From the NCBI GenBank assembly GCA_035308905.1, contig DATGFS010000038.1, forward strand, positions 1 to 64,000: a stretch of 64,000 nucleotides of DNA, read 5' to 3'. The notes beneath the pieces were generated by a model, which saw only the letters and a program-made list of their open reading frames with translations, was not told the DNA's origin and made no database searches. Position numbers and translations under genes: made by a program. Position 1 is the stretch's first letter, and each line of letters starts with the position of its first letter. Origin of the DNA: a bacterium. Lineage in GTDB: Bacteria; Sysuimicrobiota; Sysuimicrobiia; Sysuimicrobiales; Segetimicrobiaceae. This document shows, one piece after another, positions 18,267 through 27,647 of this stretch.

Positions 18267-18932
18267 CTAGAGGTTCAATTCCTTCAGCGTGCCCGTGACC
18301 ATGTAGATCACGCGCTCGGCGATGTTCGTGGCGTGGTCGCCCATCCGCTCGAGCGCCTGGGCGGAGAAGAGCAGATGCGTGGCGCGCTGGATGTTGTGGG
18401 GATCCTCAATCATGTACGTCAGCAGCTCGCGAAATACCTGACCGTAGAGATGGTCCACCTCGTCGTCGGCGGCCGCCATCTGCTGCGCGAGGTTGACGTC
18501 GCGCTGCACAAAGGCGTCCAGGCCGGTGCGGAGCATCTGCTGCACCATTTCGGCCATCCGCGGAATGTCGATGAGGGGCTTGAGCAGCGGTTGATCGGCC
18601 ATCCGCTTGGTCGCCCGCGCAATGTCCTCCGCGTGGTCGCCGATGCGCTCGAGGTCCATCGTCATCGCCCATACCGCGGCGATGGTGCGGAGATCTTTGG
18701 CCATCGGCTGCTGGGTGGCCATCAGCATGAGGCAGCGCTCTTCCAGCTCGAGGTGCAGCGCGTCGATGGCGTTGTCGGCGGCGATGACGGCCTCCGCGCC
18801 CTCGACGCTGCGGGAGCGGAGCGCTTCGACCGACCGGCGCACCGCTTCTTCGACGAGCGCGCCCATGCGGAGCAGATCGTCCCGGAGGCCCGCCAGTTCC
18901 CGGTCGAACGCCTCCCGCGTCTGGACGGTCAT
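18267..18932 (-). CDS. phoU: Phosphate signalling protein PhoU
   Basis: 221 residues forming two repeated three-helix bundles. The pattern ExxxxxxM(D)LExIGDHAxxIA appears in the first bundle (TMDLERIGDHAEDIA) and again in the second (ALERMGDHATNIAE); these acidic clusters bind metal ions. PhoU acts at the inner membrane between the PstSCAB importer and the PhoR kinase, repressing the Pho response when phosphate is plentiful. It follows pstB by one base and is the last gene of the pst operon. Confidence 0.95.
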   Translation of the reverse strand: MTVQTREAFDRELAGLRDDLLRMGALVEEAVRRSVEALRSRSVEGAEAVIAADNAIDALHLELEERCLMLMATQQPMAKDLRTIAAVWAMTMDLERIGDHAEDIARATKRMADQPLLKPLIDIPRMAEMVQQMLRTGLDAFVQRDVNLAQQMAAADDEVDHLYGQVFRELLTYMIEDPHNIQRATHLLFSAQALERMGDHATNIAERVIYMVTGTLKELNL

Positions 18933-18933
18933 C

Positions 18934-19755
18934 TCACCCGAACCTGCCGGTGATGTAGTCTTCCGTCTGCCGTTCCTTGGGCCGCGTGAACAGCTCCGCG
19001 GTGGGGCCGTATTCGATCAGGCTGCCGGCCAGCATGAACGCGGTGCTGTCGGACACCCGCGCGGCCTGCTGCATGTTGTGCGTGACGATGACGATCGTCA
19101 GCGTCTCGCGCAGCGTCTTGGCCAGCTCCTCGATCTTCAGCGTCGACGCCGGGTCGAGCGCCGACGCCGGCTCGTCCATCAGCAGGACTTCGGGCTGCAC
19201 CGCGAGCGCCCTGGCGATGCACAGCCGCTGCTGCTGGCCGCCGGATAGGCTCGTCCCGGGCCGGGCCAGCACATCCTTGACCTCGTCCCACAGCGCGGCC
19301 TGGCCCAGACTGCGTTCGGCCACCTCATCCAGGACCCGGCGGTCGCGAATCCCGTTCAGCCGCAGTCCCACCACGACGTTGTCGTAAATCGACATCGTCG
19401 GGAATGGGTTGGCCCGCTGGAACACCATGCCGACGCGGCGCCGCACCTCGACCGGATCCACCGACGGCGCATAGATGTCCTCGCCGTCGAGCAGCACGCG
19501 GCCCTCCCTGCGGGCGCCGGGGACGACCTCGTGCATCCGGTTGAGACAGCGCAGGAACGTCGACTTGCCGCAGCCGGACGGGCCGATGATGGCGGTGATC
19601 CGGTTCGCGGCAATGTCGAGCGACAGCCCCTTCACGGCGTGCGTGCGCCCGAAGTAGGCATGGAGGTCTTCAACGACGAGTTGCGACGGAACGCCGGTCT
19701 CGATGGCCTCCCCCTTCGCGAGTGCGGAGGCTATCGCGTGGTCCCACAACATCAT
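18934..19755 (-). CDS. pstB: Phosphate ABC transporter ATP-binding protein PstB
   Basis: About 273 residues. Walker A is GPSGCGKST, the signature is LSGGQQQR, Walker B is [12 protein letters not shown], and the switch histidine is in [15 protein letters not shown]. The [19 protein letters not shown] stretch after Walker A and the [20 protein letters not shown] segment are specific to PstB among ABC ATPases. It powers high-affinity phosphate uptake with PstA/PstC. ATGATG at 19755/19752 both have AAGGAAG upstream; I take the first. It lies 83 bases after pstA, a gap that holds only the pstA stop and a short leader. Confidence 0.95.
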
Positions 19756-19838
19756 GCTGGGAGCTTCCTTCGCGATGACTTCGGACCCCCCGATGGTCCT
19801 ACCTCCCGCCGGTCGACCGCCGCCCGGCCGCCATGAAA

Positions 19839-20699
19839 TTAACGCCCCACCGTGAACCGCTGCCGGCCCGCCGCCCGCGCGGCTATATTCAACAACAGCG
19901 TGATCGCCATCAACACCAGCGCCGCCGCCCACGCCTGGCGATGCCAATCGTCGTACGGCGCGATCGAGTAGGTGAACAGCTGCACGGTGAGCGACGAGAT
20001 CGGCTGATCGAGCCCCGCCTGCCAGAACTGGTTGTTGAAGGCGGTGAACAAGAGGGGCGCCGTCTCACCGCCGATGCGCGCCACGGCCAGCATGATGCCG
20101 GTGATCACGCCCGCCGTCGCGGTGCGAAGGACGATTCGGAGGCTTGTGATCCACCAGCGGATGCCGAGGGCGAGCGACGCCTCGCGCAGCGACGACGGCA
20201 CGAGCCGGACCATCTCCTCGGTGGTCCGCACCACCAGTGGGATCATCATGACGCCGAGCGCGAGCCCCCCGGCCAGCGCCGAAAAGCGGTGCATCGGGAC
20301 AACGACCAGCGCGTAGACGAAGACCCCGACGACGATGCTCGGAAGGCCGTTGAGGACATCCGCGGTAAACCGTATCCACCAGCCCAGCCGGCCGTCGCCG
20401 GCCTCCGCGAGAAAGAGCCCGCCGAGGATGCCGACCGGCACGCCGACGCCGGATGCGAGCCCGATCAGCGTGAGCGTGCCCAGGATCGCGTTCGCCATGC
20501 CGCCTCCGGGCTCGCCCACCGGCGCCGGCAGGTGGGTGAAGAACGCCCAGTTGAGCGCCGGCGCGCCCTGGACGACGACGTAGCCGAGCAGGCTCGCCAG
20601 CGGGGCGATCGCGACGAGAATCGCGGCAAGACAGACCCACCCCATGACGCGGTCCGTCAGCCGCCGGCGCGCGCCCGCGCGGGAGCCCGGCGCGATCAC
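19839..20699 (-). CDS. pstA: Phosphate ABC transporter permease PstA
   Basis: 286 residues, six transmembrane helices. Family segments are [18 protein letters not shown], the loop [19 protein letters not shown], and the EAA-like [28 protein letters not shown], all close to the PstA consensus. It forms the membrane channel with PstC. The GTG at 20699 overlaps the pstC stop as GTGA; the longer in-frame reading to 21233 is not coding. Confidence 0.94.
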
Positions 20700-21673
20700 C
20701 GGACCACCCGCGTATGGGACGTCACGCGCGCCACGAGCCACCTCGCCAGCGCATTCACGATCAGCGACACCGCGAAAAGCACGAGCGCCATCTCGATGAG
20801 GGCGGACAGGTACAGGTCGCTGGTCGCCTCCGAGAATTCGTTGGCCAGCACCGCTGCGATCGTATAGGCGGGCTGGAACAGGGACGTTGGAATCTGCGGG
20901 CGGTTGCCGATCACCATTGTGACGGCGATCGTCTCGCCGAGCGCGCGGCCGAGGCCCAGGATGACGGCGCCGATGATCCCGACCCGGCCGTACGGCACGA
21001 CCGCGCGGCTGATGACCTCCCAGCGGGTCGCGCCGAGCGCATACATCGCCTCGCGCTGCTCCGGCGGCACGGCGCGCAGGACGTCGCGCGACACCGACGA
21101 CACGATCGGGATGATCATGATCGCGAGGATGATGCCGGCCGCGAGCAGGCCGATGCCGTACTGCGGGCCGCTGAACAGGGGGAGCCAGCCCAAGACCGCC
21201 GCGAGCGCCGGCTCGACGGCCGCGCGTACCCACGGCGCCAGCACGAAAATACCCCAGAGGCCGAGGATGACGCTCGGGATCGCGGCCAGGAGCTCGATGA
21301 CGAACGACAGCGCGACCGACATCTGCGCGGGGGCGATCTCGACGAGATAGACCGCGACGCCGAGACTGATCGGCACCGCGATGAGCAGCGCCAGCGTCGA
21401 CGAAGCCACCGTGCCGAAGACGAACGGCAGGGCCCCGAAGACATTGTGCACAGGATCCCAGCGCGACGTCCAGAGAAACGCCGGGCCGAACCGCCGGATC
21501 GACGGCATCGCCGCGCCGATGAGCACGCAGGCGATCGCGGCGACCAGCACGATCACGGCCACGCCGAACACCGTGAGCAGGACGCGAAAGCCGACGTCGC
21601 CGCCGCGGCCGCCCCGCGATCGAGGCACGGCCGGGAGAGGCGCGCCTCTCCCGGCCGGCAGGGCATAGGACAT
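20696..21673 (-). CDS. pstC: Phosphate ABC transporter permease PstC
   Basis: 325 residues with six predicted helices. The first runs at about 28-52, and the FLWTSRWDPVHNVFGALPFVFGT segment after it is diagnostic of PstC. ELLAAIPSVILGLWGIFVLAPW and the EAA loop (REAMYALGATRWEVI) follow. It partners PstA. The start is the ATG at 21673, 7 bases after the pstS stop. Confidence 0.95.
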   Translation of the reverse strand: MSYALPAGRGAPLPAVPRSRGGRGGDVGFRVLLTVFGVAVIVLVAAIACVLIGAAMPSIRRFGPAFLWTSRWDPVHNVFGALPFVFGTVASSTLALLIAVPISLGVAVYLVEIAPAQMSVALSFVIELLAAIPSVILGLWGIFVLAPWVRAAVEPALAAVLGWLPLFSGPQYGIGLLAAGIILAIMIIPIVSSVSRDVLRAVPPEQREAMYALGATRWEVISRAVVPYGRVGIIGAVILGLGRALGETIAVTMVIGNRPQIPTSLFQPAYTIAAVLANEFSEATSDLYLSALIEMALVLFAVSLIVNALARWLVARVTSHTRVVR

Positions 21674-21680
21674 GGATGAC

Positions 21681-22769
21681 TTACTGCGCGACGAGCAGCG
21701 CCTTGCCCTGGTACGTGACTTGCTTCACCAGCCCTTCGTCGATCTTGACCACGGCCGGCGGCGCCTGCGCGTACAAGAGCTGCGCGGCATCCTTTTCTCC
21801 GTCGTGGATGGCCCACCACAGAAAGTCGACGAGCGCGCGGCCTCTCACCGCGTCCTGCTGTTCTTGCGGAACCAGCAGATAGGTGAACCCGGCGATCGGA
21901 TAGTTCATCGCCCCGGGCGCGTACGCGATCGAGACGCGCACGTCACGCGTCTTCACCATCTGCTCGGCGCCGCCCGCCGCGGCCAGCACGGTCGCGGCGA
22001 GCGACGGCGCCACCCAGTGCCCGTCGCGGTTCTTCACCACGGCGTACGTGAGGTTGTTCTGCTTGACGTAGGCGAGCTCGACGTAGCCGATGGCGCCGGG
22101 CGTCTGCTTGACCGCGCCGGCGACTCCCTCGTTTCCCTTCCCGCCGATGCCAACCGGCCACTCGACCGACGTGGCGTGACCGACCTTGTTGGACCACTCC
22201 GGGCTGACCAGCGACAGGAACGACGTGAAGTGAAACGTGGTGCCGCTGCCGTCGGACCGGTGCACGACCGTGATCGGCAGGTTCGGCAGCTTCATGCCCG
22301 GATTGTCGGCCGTGAGCTTCGGATCGTTCCACTTGGTGATGGTGCCCAGATACAGCGCGGCGATGTTCTGCGACGACAGGCGCAGCCCCGTGCCGACGTT
22401 CGGGATGTTGTAGCTCATCGCGATCGCGCCGGCGACCGTGGGAATCAAGACGATCGGCCGGCCCATCGCTTTGAGCTGGTCGTCGGACAGCGGCGCATCG
22501 GACGCGCCGAAATCGACCGTGCGGTTCTTGACCTGCTGGATGCCGCCGCCGCTGCCGATGGACTGATAGTTGATCCGCACGTCGGGATGAGCGCGATTGT
22601 ATTCGGCGAACCACCGCGAGTAGAGCGGGAACGGAAACGTGGCGCCCGCCCCGTTCAACGTGACGATGCCGGCGCCCTTCGCCGGCTGCACGGCCGGACT
22701 CATCCCCACGAGCAGGGCGCAGATGGCCGCGGCCGCGAGCAAAGAACGCCAATGTGGCGTTGTCCTCAT
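21681..22769 (-). CDS. pstS: Phosphate ABC transporter substrate-binding protein PstS
   Basis: About 362 residues with a Sec signal peptide (hydrophobic core near residues 8-22, cleavage near AKGAG). The mature protein opens with the PstS hallmark LNGAGATFPFPLYSRWFAEY. It also has the phosphate-contacting regions IGSGGGIQQVKNRTVDFGASDAPLS and HRSDGSGTTFHFTSFLS. It captures phosphate outside the membrane for PstCAB. The ATG at 22769 has GGGGGA about 6 bases upstream and is preferred to the ATG at 22796. It is first in the operon, and an 11-bp-periodic Pho-box-like repeat lies upstream. Confidence 0.95.
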   Translation of the reverse strand: MRTTPHWRSLLAAAAICALLVGMSPAVQPAKGAGIVTLNGAGATFPFPLYSRWFAEYNRAHPDVRINYQSIGSGGGIQQVKNRTVDFGASDAPLSDDQLKAMGRPIVLIPTVAGAIAMSYNIPNVGTGLRLSSQNIAALYLGTITKWNDPKLTADNPGMKLPNLPITVVHRSDGSGTTFHFTSFLSLVSPEWSNKVGHATSVEWPVGIGGKGNEGVAGAVKQTPGAIGYVELAYVKQNNLTYAVVKNRDGHWVAPSLAATVLAAAGGAEQMVKTRDVRVSIAYAPGAMNYPIAGFTYLLVPQEQQDAVRGRALVDFLWWAIHDGEKDAAQLLYAQAPPAVVKIDEGLVKQVTYQGKALLVAQ

Positions 22770-22823
22770 CGAGTCCCCCTTGTGAATCTGTCTCATCCGT
22801 TCAAGGGTAGATTAGCGGGCGTG

Positions 22824-22873
22824 TATTAATCCTCCGGCCGGCGCGGATTAAGAGATTATTAAGGCGCCGTTAA
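22824..22873 (-). promoter_or_regulatory. Pho-box-like repeats upstream of pstS
   Basis: Read on the minus strand, TTAACG, TTAATA and TTAATC occur in a row, each separated by exactly 5 bases (22846-22873), giving an 11-bp period. A fourth copy, TTAATA at 22824-22829, lies exactly two periods (22 bp) further toward pstS. This matches the spacing and sequence of PhoP-type boxes (TTnAyA-N5 repeats), one helical turn apart. Being A/T-rich it stands out in the 70% GC background. It is 55-104 bases upstream of the pstS ATG and also 50 bases from the divergent aquaporin start, so PhoB/PhoP may control both directions. Confidence 0.75.
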
Positions 22874-22922: not shown

Positions 22923-23680
22923 ATGTCTTCGCACGGGACCGCGTCCACGCTCCCGCGGCGCGCGCTGGCCGAATTCATCGGCACCGCGTTGCTCGTCGCG
23001 GCCGTGATCGGATCGGGCATCGCCGCGGCGCGACTCAGCCCCCACGATGCGGGCCTGCAGTTGTTCGAGAACGCCGCGGCCACCGCCGCCGCCCTCACCG
23101 CGATCATTCTGGCGGTGGGTCCGGTCTCGGGCGCCCACCTGAACCCCGCGTAACCCTGGCCGATTGGCGCTTGGGCGGGATCAGCGGATACGATGGAGTC
23201 TTCTACGGGCTCGCGCAAATCGGCGGCGGCGTCTCGGGCGCTGTCGCCGCCAATATGATGTTCGCGCTGCCGGCCGTCGAAATCTCATCCACGGCGCGGT
23301 GGGGAGCCCATCTCTGGTTCAGCGAGGTGGTGGCGACGTTCGGTCTGCTGCTGGTGATCTTCGGAGGCGCGCGCTCGGGCCGAGGCGCGTTCGTTCCCGT
23401 CGGTGTCGGCGCCTACATCGGCGGCGCGTATTGGTTCACGTCATCGACGAGTTTCGCCAACCCCGCGGTGACGGTCGCCCGCACGCTCTCCAACACGTTC
23501 GCGGGCATCGCCCCCGGTTCTGCGGGGCCGTTCCTGGCGGCCCAGGTTGTCGGGGCGCTGCTGGCGGTCGCCGTCGTCCGGCTGCTCTACCCTACGATCG
23601 CCGAGGTCGCCGCGAGCGTCGTGGTGCCGCACACGGGATCCACCGGGCATCCGGAGAATAGTGGCGGCCGCTCAGGGTAG
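22923..23680 (+). pseudogene. MIP/aquaporin-family channel of an arsenic locus, broken by a 1-base frameshift
   Basis: Residues 1-76 (22923-23150) give the first half of an aquaporin and end at the first NPA motif (GAHLNPA) with an immediate TAA. The next frame, from base 23150, continues without a break as VTLADWRLGGISGYDG and carries helices 3-6 and the second NPA (SFANPAVTVA) to the stop at 23680. Inserting one G at the junction restores a full protein of about 252 residues. Channels of this type next to arsC (AqpS-like) pass arsenite or methylarsenicals. The break is either a real mutation, a base-call error, or, less likely, a -1 frameshift site; no classical slippery heptamer is visible. 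Confidence 0.82.
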
Positions 23681-23695
23681 GGGGAGCGCGCGCTG

Positions 23696-24082
23696 ATGGC
23701 CCGTGTGCTCTTCGTCTGCCTCCACAACGCGGGCCGCTCTCAGATGAGCCGCGCCTTCTTCGAGCAGATCGCGCAGGGCACCCACGAAGCGCGCTCGGCC
23801 GGCACGTCGCCGGCGGAACGGGTCCATCCTGAAGTCGTCGACGCGATGCGGGAGGTCGGCATCGATTTGTCCGCGCGGACGCCGCGGCGGCTGACGGACG
23901 AGCTGGCGGGATGGGCCGACGTCGTCGTCACAATGGGCTGCGGCGACCAGTGCCCGTATATCCCGGGAAAACGATACATCGATTGGGATCTCCCGGATCC
24001 CAAGGGGATGCCGGCGGCCGACGTGCGCCGCGTGCGCGACGAGATCCGCCGGCGCGTGCGGGAATTGGCGCGAGACCTGTGA
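23696..24082 (+). CDS. arsC: Arsenate reductase, low-molecular-weight phosphatase type
   Basis: 128 residues. The anion-binding P-loop is CLHNAGRS with Cys8 and Arg14 (CX5R). Two further cysteines, Cys82 and Cys86 in MGCGDQC, are placed to relay the disulfide during reduction. The DWDLPDPKG segment is conserved in the family. It reduces arsenate to arsenite with thioredoxin or a low-molecular-weight thiol. The second and third cysteines are only 4 apart, unlike the 7-residue spacing of the Bacillus/Staphylococcus thioredoxin-linked enzymes, so the electron donor is open. GGGGGAG precedes the ATG at 23696; the gene lies 15 bases after the aquaporin frame and is likely co-transcribed. Confidence 0.92.
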   Translation: MARVLFVCLHNAGRSQMSRAFFEQIAQGTHEARSAGTSPAERVHPEVVDAMREVGIDLSARTPRRLTDELAGWADVVVTMGCGDQCPYIPGKRYIDWDLPDPKGMPAADVRRVRDEIRRRVRELARDL

Positions 24083-24125: not shown

Positions 24126-25523
24126 TCATTCCTGGGCGCGCGGCAGCACCAGCGTGAAACGGGTGCCCTGCCCTTCCACGCTCTGCACCTCGACCTCGCC
24201 TCCGTGCGAGGTGGCGATGTGCTTGACGATACTGAGGCCCAGGCCGGTGCCGCCGAGCGCCCGCGACCGAGACCGGTCCACGCGATAAAATCGCTCAAAG
24301 ATCCGGGGAAGGTGTTCCGGCGAGATTCCAATCCCCGTGTCCGCCACGGAAATCGTGACGGTACTTTCCCGGCGCCCCGCCTCCACAATGACCGTTCCGC
24401 CGTCGAGCGTATACTTGATCGCGTTGTCCACGAGATTCGCGACCGCCTGTGTGATACGGGTGCGGTCGGCCCACGCCCGCGGCAGCCCGGGCGCGCCGTC
24501 GCCGCGCAGCGCGATCCGCCGGCGTTCCGCCATGGGCCTGAACTTTGTGATCACGTCGTCGACGACGTCGTCGAGGGCGACGGGCTCCATCTCCAGTTTG
24601 GCGCTGCCGCTCTCGATCGCCGACAGATCCAAGAGATCGTTGACGAGGAGGGTCAGGCGGTCGATCTCCGCGACGATCCGCTCGAAGAACCGGGGCCCGG
24701 CCTCACGATCCTGCGCCGCTCCTCCGGCCAGCGCTTCGGCGAGCGCCCGCACAGACGCGAGCGGCGTGCGCAGCTCGTGCGAGACATTCGCGACGAACTC
24801 ACGGCGCACAATGTCGGTGCGGCGCTGCTCGGTGACGTCCTGCGCGACGACGACCACGCCCAGGAACTCGCCCCGCGGCCCCCTCACCGGGTTCGCCTGA
24901 ACGCGCAGCAGCCGCCGCTCGGGATGGTGCAGCTCGATCTCGCGGGTGCAGGGCCGGCGCTCCCGCTCGGCCTGCCGGACGAGGGCGTCCAGCTCGAAAT
25001 GGCGGAACACCTCGATCAGGGGGTGCCCGATCACGAAGGGCGCCACGATGCCGAAGAACCGCTCCGCCGCGGGGTTCACCAGCGTCAGCGCGCCTCGGCC
25101 GTCGAGCACCAGCAGCGCGTCGCTCATGTGGGCCAGCACGGACTCGAGCGTGGACTTCCGGAACTCGAGGGCGGCGATGATATGGCTGGTTTCCAGGACC
25201 ATGGCGTTGAAGGCGGCGACGGCTTCGTGCACCTCGTAGAACGACGTGCCGCGCGGCGGCTCGTGCGCCGGACGAAGGCGGCCCTCGATGCCGGACCACG
25301 CCGCGGCGGCGAGATCGCGGAGCGGCCGGCTCAGCGCGGCGGCGAACCGTGCGGCGACGAGCGTCGCCGCGGCGGCGGCGACGAGCGCCGTGCCGAGCAG
25401 AGGAGTCAAGACGTCGGGGAAGTGCCGCGGCCATCCCGCGGCGGCGAACAACACCGCGGCGCTGAGCGCGACGAGTGCCGCGTAGAGGACCAGCGCCGCC
25501 ATCACCGCGCGGTGGAGGCGCAT
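24126..25523 (-). CDS. phoR: Phosphate-type sensor histidine kinase PhoR
   Basis: 465 residues. Two transmembrane helices (about 7-29 and 40-62) have almost no outside loop between them, followed by a HAMP-like linker and a PAS domain (about 120-235). The HisKA domain has the phospho-accepting His249 in FVANVSHELRTPL. The ATPase domain has NLVDNAIKYT, DTGIGIS and GGTGLGLSIVKHI. The missing extracellular domain fits PhoR proteins that sense through PstSCAB/PhoU rather than binding phosphate. It sits one base from the response-regulator gene, and the pst operon is two genes away. Confidence 0.92.
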   Translation of the reverse strand: MRLHRAVMAALVLYAALVALSAAVLFAAAGWPRHFPDVLTPLLGTALVAAAAATLVAARFAAALSRPLRDLAAAAWSGIEGRLRPAHEPPRGTSFYEVHEAVAAFNAMVLETSHIIAALEFRKSTLESVLAHMSDALLVLDGRGALTLVNPAAERFFGIVAPFVIGHPLIEVFRHFELDALVRQAERERRPCTREIELHHPERRLLRVQANPVRGPRGEFLGVVVVAQDVTEQRRTDIVRREFVANVSHELRTPLASVRALAEALAGGAAQDREAGPRFFERIVAEIDRLTLLVNDLLDLSAIESGSAKLEMEPVALDDVVDDVITKFRPMAERRRIALRGDGAPGLPRAWADRTRITQAVANLVDNAIKYTLDGGTVIVEAGRRESTVTISVADTGIGISPEHLPRIFERFYRVDRSRSRALGGTGLGLSIVKHIATSHGGEVEVQSVEGQGTRFTLVLPRAQE

Positions 25524-25524
25524 C

Positions 25525-26274
25525 TTACGTTCCGAGCTTGTAGCCTACACCCCGGACCGTTTCGATGGTGGTCTCCGAGCCGGCTTCCTGCAGCTTCTGC
25601 CGGAGCCACCGGACGTGGACGTCGACCGTCCGGTCGTCGCCGGTGAAATCGTAGCCCCACACGTGCTGCAGCAGCGCCGCCCGCGTGAGGACGCGTCCGG
25701 GATTGGCGAGGAACGCGCGCAGCAAATCGAATTGCCGAGGCGGCAGCGTCATCGCCTGCCCGCGAACCGTCACCTCGTGCCGCGCAACGTCCATCGCCAC
25801 CTCGCCGACGGACAGCAGCTCTTCGCGCTCGCGCACCCCGCGCGCGGCCGACTGGGCGCGTCGCAGCGCCGCGCGCACGCGCGCCAGCACCTCGCGAAGG
25901 CTGAACGGCTTCGTGATGTAGTCGTCGGCGCCGAGATCGAGGCCGACCACGCGATCCGGTTCGTCGCCGCGCGCAGTCAGCATGAGGATCGGCACCGTGG
26001 ACTCCTGGCGGAGCACACGGCAGATCTCGAAGCCGCTCATTCCCGGCAGCATGATGTCGAGCAGCACGAGGTCCGGCGCCACGCGGCGGGCCAGCTCAAG
26101 CGCCTCGCCGCCCTCGCCGGCCTCGAGGACGTCGTAGCCTTCTTTTTCCAACGCATAGCGGAGGGATTCCACGATCGCGCGCTCGTCGTCGACGAGAAGA
26201 ATTCTCGGCTTCTGACTCCGGCGGGAGCCTGCATCATCCGCCTTGCGCGCGTCGTGAGCGTCGTGCGTCAGCAT
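25525..26274 (-). CDS. phoB: OmpR/PhoB-family response regulator, probably PhoB/PhoP
   Basis: About 249 residues. Receiver domain: acidic pocket Asp29-Asp30, phospho-acceptor Asp73 in LLDIMLPGMSG, switch Thr in LMLTARG, and Lys in YITKPFSLRE. The winged-helix DNA-binding domain ends with VHVRWLRQKLQEAG and ETVRGVGYKL, the OmpR/PhoB pattern. It would be phosphorylated by the adjacent kinase and bind the 11-bp-periodic boxes found at pstS and next to its own gene. I take the ATG at 26274; the ATG at 26295 lacks any ribosome site and precedes the receiver by an atypically long tail. Confidence 0.9.
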   Translation of the reverse strand: MLTHDAHDARKADDAGSRRSQKPRILLVDDERAIVESLRYALEKEGYDVLEAGEGGEALELARRVAPDLVLLDIMLPGMSGFEICRVLRQESTVPILMLTARGDEPDRVVGLDLGADDYITKPFSLREVLARVRAALRRAQSAARGVREREELLSVGEVAMDVARHEVTVRGQAMTLPPRQFDLLRAFLANPGRVLTRAALLQHVWGYDFTGDDRTVDVHVRWLRQKLQEAGSETTIETVRGVGYKLGT

Positions 26275-26378
26275 CGCTTGACACGAGCATAACATGGAAC
26301 CGGGTCAGCGTCACGCAATCTCTGCCGCGCACGCGCCGCGAAAGTATCGGCGAAGTTTTTGGCGGCCTCGCGCGGATG

Positions 26379-26395
26379 TTAACCTGTCCTTAATC
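26379..26395 (+). promoter_or_regulatory. Two-repeat Pho-box-like site between phoB and the RNase H-like gene
   Basis: TTAACC, five bases, TTAATC: the same hexamer-N5-hexamer structure as upstream of pstS, on the plus strand. It lies 105 bases from the phoB start and 77 bases from the start of the divergent RNase H-like gene. It may give PhoB autoregulation, control of the divergent gene, or both. No other recognisable element stands out in the 197-base gap. Confidence 0.6.
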
Positions 26396-26471: not shown

Positions 26472-27038
26472 GTGGACGCCCGTTCCGCCTCGACAGGACG
26501 AGGATCGCAGGACCCGACGGCCGCACCAAGGAGCGACCCCAGGCCGGCGGCCCATCCGCGACCCCTCGCTTTCCCAAGGGCGGGACGCCGGTTACAGCCC
26601 CGGCTCCTCCATGTCTACATCGCGACGGCGCCGCGACCCAACGCGGCGCCGTCGCTCGTTTTCATGGACGAGGCCGCCCGCGTGCTCGAGCGGATCCCGT
26701 TTGACCGGATTCCCCATGGCCCGGCTGTGCGCCCGTCCACCCACGCGTCGGCGCGGTCGCGGCTCACCTTTCGGGCGCTCGTCTACGCTTTGTGGAACGC
26801 CCGCCGCCTCGGCTTTCGCCGGATCGCGCTGCACAGCGACGATCCGGGCGCGGTCGCGCAGATGAACGGAGAACGGCGCGTCGATCCGGAAGCGGTGGGA
26901 TTGTACCTCGAGGCGCGCGCGCTGATGCATCTGTACAAGAGCGCGACGATCGACGTCGGAGAACTGCTGCCGTCGGTGCTCGAGCCGTGGGCGCCGTCAC
27001 CGGTCGCGGCCGGGTGCCCTACGCCTGTTTCGTCTTGA
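26472..27038 (+). CDS. Degenerate RNase H-like-fold protein
   Basis: 188-codon frame starting at a GTG with GGGGAG 5-6 bases upstream. From about residue 47 it follows the RNase HI pattern: a strand HVYIATAPRPNAAP, a helix RALVYALWNARRLGF, the strand RRIALHSDD at 117-124, then a helix with MNGERRVDPEAV and YLEARAL. Only the aspartate of HSDD remains of the catalytic residues. The first Asp (normally in VYxDG) is Ala, and the Glu (normally AExxAL) is lost. It is therefore probably not a nuclease as it stands. The first 45 residues are low-complexity and may not be translated. Its 3' end overlaps the convergent DUF47 gene by 20 bases. Confidence 0.5.
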   Translation: MDARSASTGRGSQDPTAAPRSDPRPAAHPRPLAFPRAGRRLQPRLLHVYIATAPRPNAAPSLVFMDEAARVLERIPFDRIPHGPAVRPSTHASARSRLTFRALVYALWNARRLGFRRIALHSDDPGAVAQMNGERRVDPEAVGLYLEARALMHLYKSATIDVGELLPSVLEPWAPSPVAAGCPTPVSS

Positions 27039-27636
27039 TCGTTTCGAGAACGTTCGCGACGTCCTCGGCCTGATCGGTCGCCTCTTCGAGCGTCTCGTAG
27101 ATTTCCTTCCACTTCATGATGTCGATGGCGTTAGCGGTGCTGGCAAACAGCGCCGCGACGGCGTCGCGCTGGACATGATCGGCGAGGTTCTCGAGGCGGT
27201 GGATCTCCCGCACCGGCCCGTCGAGCCTGTCGAGCCGTTGGAGGTTTCCGACCGCATCGACAATCGCCTGCGCCGCGTCGACGATGATGTGGGTCATCTC
27301 CTGTCCTTCGCGGGTCGGCCGGGGAATCCGATAGACCGCCATCCGGGCGGCGGCGGCCTCGATCCAGTCGATCACGTTGTCGAGCTGGCGCGCGAGCTCG
27401 TGGATGTCTTCCCGGTCGAACGGCGTGACGAACGTCCGATTCAGCCGGTCCATGATCTCGTGGGTGATCTCGTCGCCGCGGTCTTCGAGCTCTTTGATCG
27501 CCGCCGCGCGCGCCTCGACGTCGCGGTAGTCATCAAACAGGTCCCGCAGCAGCGTGGCGCTCTGCAGAATGTTCTCGGCGGCGCGGTTGAAGAGCACAAA
27601 GAAGCCTTCCTCGCGCGGGAACAGCCGGAGCACCAT
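27019..27636 (-). CDS. DUF47/TIGR00153 PhoU-like phosphate transport regulator
   Basis: 205 residues, all-helical. The helical core carries the metal-binding PhoU-type motifs KELEDRGDEITHEIMDRLNRTFVTPFDREDIHEL and, later, IHRLENLADHVQRDAV, characteristic of the DUF47 family. These proteins normally accompany a low-affinity PiT phosphate transporter and modulate it; no PiT gene is in the window. The ATG at 27636 has AAGGGA about 7 bases upstream. It lies 11 bases after glpD, so glycerol-3-phosphate oxidation and phosphate control may share a transcript. Confidence 0.88.
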   Translation of the reverse strand: MVLRLFPREEGFFVLFNRAAENILQSATLLRDLFDDYRDVEARAAAIKELEDRGDEITHEIMDRLNRTFVTPFDREDIHELARQLDNVIDWIEAAAARMAVYRIPRPTREGQEMTHIIVDAAQAIVDAVGNLQRLDRLDGPVREIHRLENLADHVQRDAVAALFASTANAIDIMKWKEIYETLEEATDQAEDVANVLETIKTKQA

Positions 27637-27647
27637 AGCGGTCCCTT

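Follow-up and report, generated by a model that had tools for sequence, protein, structure and literature searches.

Pho boxes in other bacteria and the array upstream of pstS

The PhoP box of Bacillus subtilis consists of TT(A/C/T)A(C/T)A repeats. The Pho boxes known so far are built of direct repeats of 11 nt, bound head to tail (PMC4415409); in cyanobacteria, three or more CTTAACCT repeats are joined by 3-bp linkers, and the Pho box of Escherichia coli ends 10 bp before a -10 element of the form TAN3T/A (PMC1906773). In arsenic islands of other bacteria, arsenic genes and pst/pho genes lie side by side (PMC3834237). The CSP1-3 phylum comprises one class and one order (PMC11604079). In the window, that is, the whole 64,000-nt stretch of DNA analyzed here, the minus strand upstream of pstS carries TTAACG, TTAATA, and TTAATC, separated by gcgcc and atctc, and, after 16 further bases, TTAATA (Table 1). 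A sequence-only reading had described three hexamers with exact 5-base spacers, a fourth one 22 bp further on, and a divergent gap of 153 bases; the coordinates gave an 11-bp period for the first three, placed the fourth 22 bp from the third, and confirmed the gap (pstS start at 22769 to aquaporin ATG at 22923). The same reading had assigned the hexamers to the TTnAyA type. The TTnAy core and the 5-bp spacers were borne out, but only two of the four hexamers end in A, and the unit is therefore better written YTTAAY. The array thus resembles the B. subtilis PhoP box in its core, its spacers of about 5 bp, and its pst target, and differs from it in the sixth base; the host is no relative of Bacillus. 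It shares with the E. coli PhoB and Streptomyces PhoP boxes the 11-nt direct repeat unit, and its spacing to the -10 hexamer is about that of E. coli, whereas it lacks the CTGTCAT core of E. coli. The Streptomyces sequence GTTCACC resembles the TTCAC units found in other families of the phylum. In the cyanobacterial SphR box (Synechocystis) the regulator is SphR, whereas the array of this phylum has up to five positions, with TTCAC/TTGAC in other families.

Table 1. Coordinates of the features discussed (window positions unless a locus is named)
Feature	Coordinates	Strand	Basis or remark
Pho box repeat 1, TTAACG	22868..22873	-	Sequence; conserved across orthologous pstS promoters
Pho box repeat 2, TTAATA	22857..22862	-	11 bp from repeat 1; sequence and relatives
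Pho box repeat 3, TTAATC	22846..22851	-	11 bp from repeat 2; sequence and relatives
Pho box repeat, fifth register position, TTAATA	22824..22829	-	22 bp from repeat 3
-10-like hexamer TAATCT	22809..22814	-	59 bp from start of repeat 1; position conserved in relatives
Shine-Dalgarno AAGGGGGA, strong	22774..22781	-	For pstS start 22769; sequence
pstS, phosphate-binding protein, first operon gene	21681..22769	-	TIGR00975 367 bits, above cut-off; PF12849
pstC, pstA, pstB, phoU, co-oriented downstream of pstS	18267..21673	-	PhoU TIGR02135 235 bits
Aquaporin and arsC-like LMW phosphatase	22923..24082	+	Neighbors, probably not targets
phoR/pnpS-type histidine kinase	24126..25523	-	PF00512, PF02518, PAS
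phoB-type OmpR-family response regulator	25525..26283	-	PF00072 and PF00486; best NCBIfam model PhoB
Two-box site TTAAG-N6-TTAAC upstream of phoB	26378..26393	-	Possible weak autoregulatory site
Separate DUF47 protein	27022-27645	-	Precedes phoB-type gene in minus-strand order
DUF47-winged-helix fusion, examples	L209:9339-10289; L208:10045-10998; L241:2217-3167	-; -; +	16 further genomes

Register and rarity of the repeats

In an 11-bp register, the array occupies positions 1, 2, 3, and 5; position 4 (33 bp) has no recognizable box in this genome. The fifth-position TTAATA starts 15 bp ahead of the -10-like hexamer, a spacing that promoters from other families also show. A sigma70 -35/-10 scan of the gap gave no promoter on either strand, which is the expected result if the boxes replace the -35 element. 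The window has a G+C content of 70% and contains 11 TTAA sites; TTAA pairs at spacings of 5-24 bp are exclusively 11 or 22 bp apart, and all lie within the array except one 11-bp pair upstream of the PhoB-type regulator gene (26378-26393). When the 4.0-Mb genome was searched with the pattern TTAAY-N6-TTAAY-N6-TTAAY at up to one mismatch, there was a single match, and the reversed pattern gave 0 matches in the same genome. A dinucleotide model predicted 2e-5 exact triples per genome.

The sequence-only reading had proposed that a genome search with the hexamer matrix might find hits near phosphate genes, and this was the case: the unique triple stands before pstS, and of the four sites of the two-box pattern in the genome three stand before pstS, phoB, and a ugpB-like operon. 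The reversed control of the two-box pattern gave two matches; from these match counts, the triple is decisive and the pairs only suggestive. The fourth of these sites lies close to a copper-transport ATPase (L002, with an orthologous region in G024) and was rejected as a Pho target, as no phosphate gene follows it. The site upstream of phoB has a similar counterpart (TTAAG-N6-TTAAT) in G027 and none in G023, and it is out of register with the conserved phoB -10 hexamer TATGCT; it is a possible weak autoregulatory site. We also observed a conserved GCGTGACG ... TATGCT element (window 26303-26330, minus strand) in G000 (the genome of the window), G023, and G024; it precedes the start of phoB by approximately 20 bp and is likely to be phoB's own promoter, separate from the two-box site. 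A ugpB/ugpA-like ABC transporter operon at L202:4611-7878 (G000:C11) has the two-box site TTAATAGGGTTTTAAC approximately 85 bp before its first gene. UgpB and UgpA were the best models for the first two proteins of the operon, at scores below cut-off. In relatives, a similar pair was found in G024, 22-bp pairs in G025 and G026, and none in G023; because of this patchy conservation, the operon is only a possible second Pho target.

Conservation of the array in the phylum

The comparison set consisted of 43 genomes of the phylum, belonging to one order, and pstS upstream regions were obtained from 19 genomes. In these 19 regions, TTNAY pairs occurred 25 times at 11 bp, 15 times at 22 bp, and 7 times at 33 bp, and at most three times at any other spacing up to 40 bp, while their reverse strand had no TTNAY pairs at 11 bp. 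Shuffled regions gave a mean of 0.07 pairs at 11 bp and never more than three at any spacing. A TANNNT hexamer stood 59 ± 1 or 48 bp from the first box in 17 of the 18 array-bearing promoters, 48 bp being 59 minus one repeat unit. The sequence of the box drifts from TTAAY (g1, g3) to TTAAC (g4) and to TTCAC/TTGAC (f2, f4, f6) with the period unchanged, and G015 carries the full register TTTAC-TTCAC-TTGAC-TTGGC-TTCAC. The suggestion that the repeats upstream of pstS are Pho boxes was thus upheld by the orthologous pstS and pstC promoters, which keep the 11-bp array at a fixed distance from the -10 hexamer.

In the 12 genomes of the family, a triple search with the third unit relaxed to TTNAY gave 11 exact matches: seven before pstS, three before pstC, and the last in non-coding DNA. 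Allowing up to one mismatch raised the number to 21, compared with five for the reversed pattern. A still more relaxed triple, TTMAY with one mismatch, was discarded; it added six sites, none of them before phosphate genes, which look like chance matches. The exact triple in non-coding DNA (G032, C34:192396) sits in an 11-bp repeat without a phosphate gene nearby. This short minus-strand tandem repeat, TTAACACCCCA/TTCACGCCCCA, at L213:4401-4423 (G032:C34:192385-192423), is Pho-box-like and may be a minisatellite. In other phyla (Moorella, Desulfosporosinus, Deltaproteobacteria, Dehalococcoidia, and Binataceae), 11 bp was again the commonest TTNAY spacing before pstS relatives, with 25 pairs as against typically 2-10 at other spacings.

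TTAA is short and palindromic, and AT-rich repeats without function might in principle arise by chance. The expected number of exact triples per genome, together with the conservation of spacing, strand, and position across the phylum, leaves virtually no room for such an explanation, which the comparative data already refute.

The neighboring PhoB-type regulator

Both pstS and phoU pass curated models. In minus-strand order, the genes are DUF47, the phoB-type gene, the phoR/pnpS-type gene, an inverted arsC-like and aquaporin pair (plus strand), the array, pstS, pstC, pstA, pstB, and phoU. The regulator encoded at 25525-26283 contains a receiver and an OmpR winged helix (PF00072, PF00486). It reached 253.9 bits with the PhoB model TIGR02154, under the cut-off of 296.2, and this was still the best of all models; its best match among solved structures was mycobacterial RegX3, and its close solved relatives include MtrA and PhoP. 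For the kinase at 24126-25523, PnpS was the best model, followed by PhoR, both under cut-off. The array exceeds the minimum of two direct repeats at an 11-nt period, is of a kind that lies upstream of pst or other phosphate genes and is enriched there, and keeps a fixed distance and polarity relative to the -10 hexamer (17 of 18 promoters). Because these are all the sequence features by which we recognized a Pho box, activation of pstSCAB-phoU by the neighboring PhoB-type protein would be the best supported reading. We put the probability at about 0.88 that the array is the Pho box of the pstSCAB-phoU promoter, driven by this regulator under phosphate limitation, with the aquaporin-arsC pair probably not a target; the sequence comparisons strongly support the Pho-box reading for pstS itself.

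Of the genome's regulators, the one encoded at 25525-26283 is the most likely to bind the array. Direct repeats of 11 bp are also bound by other OmpR-family regulators, response-regulator matches number in the dozens in this genome, and the solved relatives closest to the neighbor take in MtrA besides RegX3 and PhoP; moreover, both the regulator and the kinase fall below curated cut-offs. It might therefore be supposed that some other OmpR-family response regulator of the genome binds the array. However, phoB-phoR stand beside pst in G000, G023, G028, G025, and G027, directly upstream of the array in the relatives G023 and G028, and PhoB is the best NCBIfam model for the neighbor, which makes binding by another regulator very unlikely. 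In G026, the phoB gene beside pst (L211:6072-6575, G026:C142) is apparently frameshift-broken in that assembly.

For the PhoB-type protein acting on pstS, we propose the following mechanism. Under phosphate limitation, the kinase would phosphorylate the regulator, whose subunits would line up head to tail along a single face of the DNA, each at one of the TTAAY units spaced 11 bp apart. The pstS-proximal unit, which ends approximately 10 bp before the -10 hexamer, would replace the -35 element and, when bound, would recruit RNA polymerase to pstS. In this scheme, we infer binding of the array, its phosphate dependence, and the activation of pstS from the arrangement of boxes and genes.

The aquaporin-arsC pair

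The sequence-only reading had suggested that one regulator drives both pstS and the aquaporin-arsC pair. Such a shared operator, with the same regulator activating both sides, would join phosphate starvation to arsenate defense. The array does lie inside the divergent 153-bp gap, and arsenic islands are on record from other bacteria in which arsenic genes are both co-located and co-regulated with pst/pho genes (PMC3834237; PMC4563254). Unlike those islands, this locus showed no aioBA, arsR, or arsB/acr3 beside the aquaporin-arsC pair, and the pair occurs at this place in the window's genome only. The array is kept where other genes stand upstream of it, namely phoR in G023 and G028 and methylglyoxal synthase in G024. 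The closest arsC relatives (78-82%) are found on other contigs; only the one in G026 has an aquaporin partner that is intact, and there was no box near the aquaporin-arsC relatives in G026 or the arsC relatives in G024 and G028. Box polarity and the distance to the -10 hexamer suit pstS alone, and no promoter-like match towards the aquaporin was found in the 153-bp gap. In addition, the aquaporin frame is broken near 23149; one base is absent in the region of the first NPA motif (23140-23155, plus strand) in comparison with the intact G026 gene (L203:1041-1796), so that the gene is broken in this assembly, and the G000 copy would be a pseudogene or an assembly error. The arsC-like protein carries the LMWPc Pfam domain and did not reach the cut-offs of the curated ArsC models (78.7 versus 157.6 bits and 75.9 versus 215 bits). 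Joint activation of the pair with pstS was thus not sustained, and we regard a shared operator as improbable. The homology between the pairs of G000 and G026 begins inside the aquaporin gene and not in the gap. In this lineage, the pair came to lie between phoR and the array by insertion, and it is unlikely to be a target; the pst-arsC neighborhood represents a local rearrangement and is not evidence for shared control.

Since repeat 1 ends at 22873 and only approximately 49 bp separate it from the aquaporin ATG at 22923, any promoter of the aquaporin-arsC pair would have to overlap the array. While controlling pstS, bound PhoB might therefore keep the pair repressed or insulated when phosphate is scarce, and at such a distance interference with the pair would be as likely as its activation. 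This geometry is the argument for repression; against it, no aquaporin promoter was identified in the gap, the comparison of relatives gave no support, and the pair may be poorly expressed or its aquaporin inactive. We consider repression or insulation unlikely.

In a separate observation, ArsC-type proteins of 14 genomes, mostly of other families (L146-L156, L158-L160), had an in-frame UGA at the catalytic cysteine (VLFV*xxNSARSQMAEG). Full-length tRNA-Sec matches were found across the phylum, and these proteins therefore look like selenocysteine arsenate reductases. The arsC-like copy of the window has a cysteine, not UGA, at the catalytic site.

A DUF47-winged-helix fusion upstream of the array

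In genus g4 and families f2, f4, and f6, what precedes the array and pstS is not phoB-phoR but the gene for a fusion protein of approximately 310 amino acids, with an N-terminal DUF47 domain (PhoU_div, PF01865), a C-terminal Trans_reg_C domain (PF00486), and no receiver. These domains were assigned with Pfam on g4 proteins, and proteins of the other lineages were matched over their full length. Where pstS was examined in these groups, the fusion gene mostly adjoins the array directly; in g4, it can be set apart from the array by one or two small genes. The full-length fusion was present in 19 of the 43 genomes, with the query genome included, at 61-77% identity over both domains. The genus of the window and its sister genus g3 have no fusion; there, DUF47 is a gene of its own, present in addition to phoB-phoR. 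Genus g2 combines both states, with phoB-phoR next to pst and the fusion at another locus. In a search of 50 genomes from outside the phylum, the fusion did not turn up. Among PhoU/PitR proteins, a recent survey considered single-domain PhoU_div proteins only (PMC13170248), and our literature search found no paper describing a DUF47-winged-helix fusion.

The winged helices of the fusion and of the window's PhoB have in common the recognition-helix pattern RT[LV]DxH[VI]xWLRxK. Their identity of 39-49% is no higher than that to other regulators, and for this reason we do not claim shared ancestry for them. Because the fusion replaces phoB-phoR before the array in most other pstS-bearing lineages, the same operator appears to serve regulators of two kinds. 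The fusion is a candidate one-component phosphate regulator, and its position suggests that it binds the array. We would give even odds to a model in which a single Pho-box operator serves two unrelated kinds of regulator, PhoR-PhoB in some lineages and, in others, a fusion whose DUF47 domain gates DNA binding and bypasses phosphorylation. This putative exchange of regulators is the most interesting thing met along the way, as an exchange on a fixed operator makes it testable how a PhoU-like domain could directly control transcription.

Significance of the Pho operator in this phylum

Read as the Pho box of pstSCAB-phoU, the array would be a switch of a known kind that occurs in a bacterial phylum still uncultured. 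This is, to our knowledge, the first sequence-level definition of a Pho operator for the ANGP1/CSP1-3-type phylum, which is probably Sysuimicrobiota. Its register of five positions with an 11-bp period, ending approximately 10 bp before TANNNT, may be used to predict phosphate-regulated genes in the phylum.
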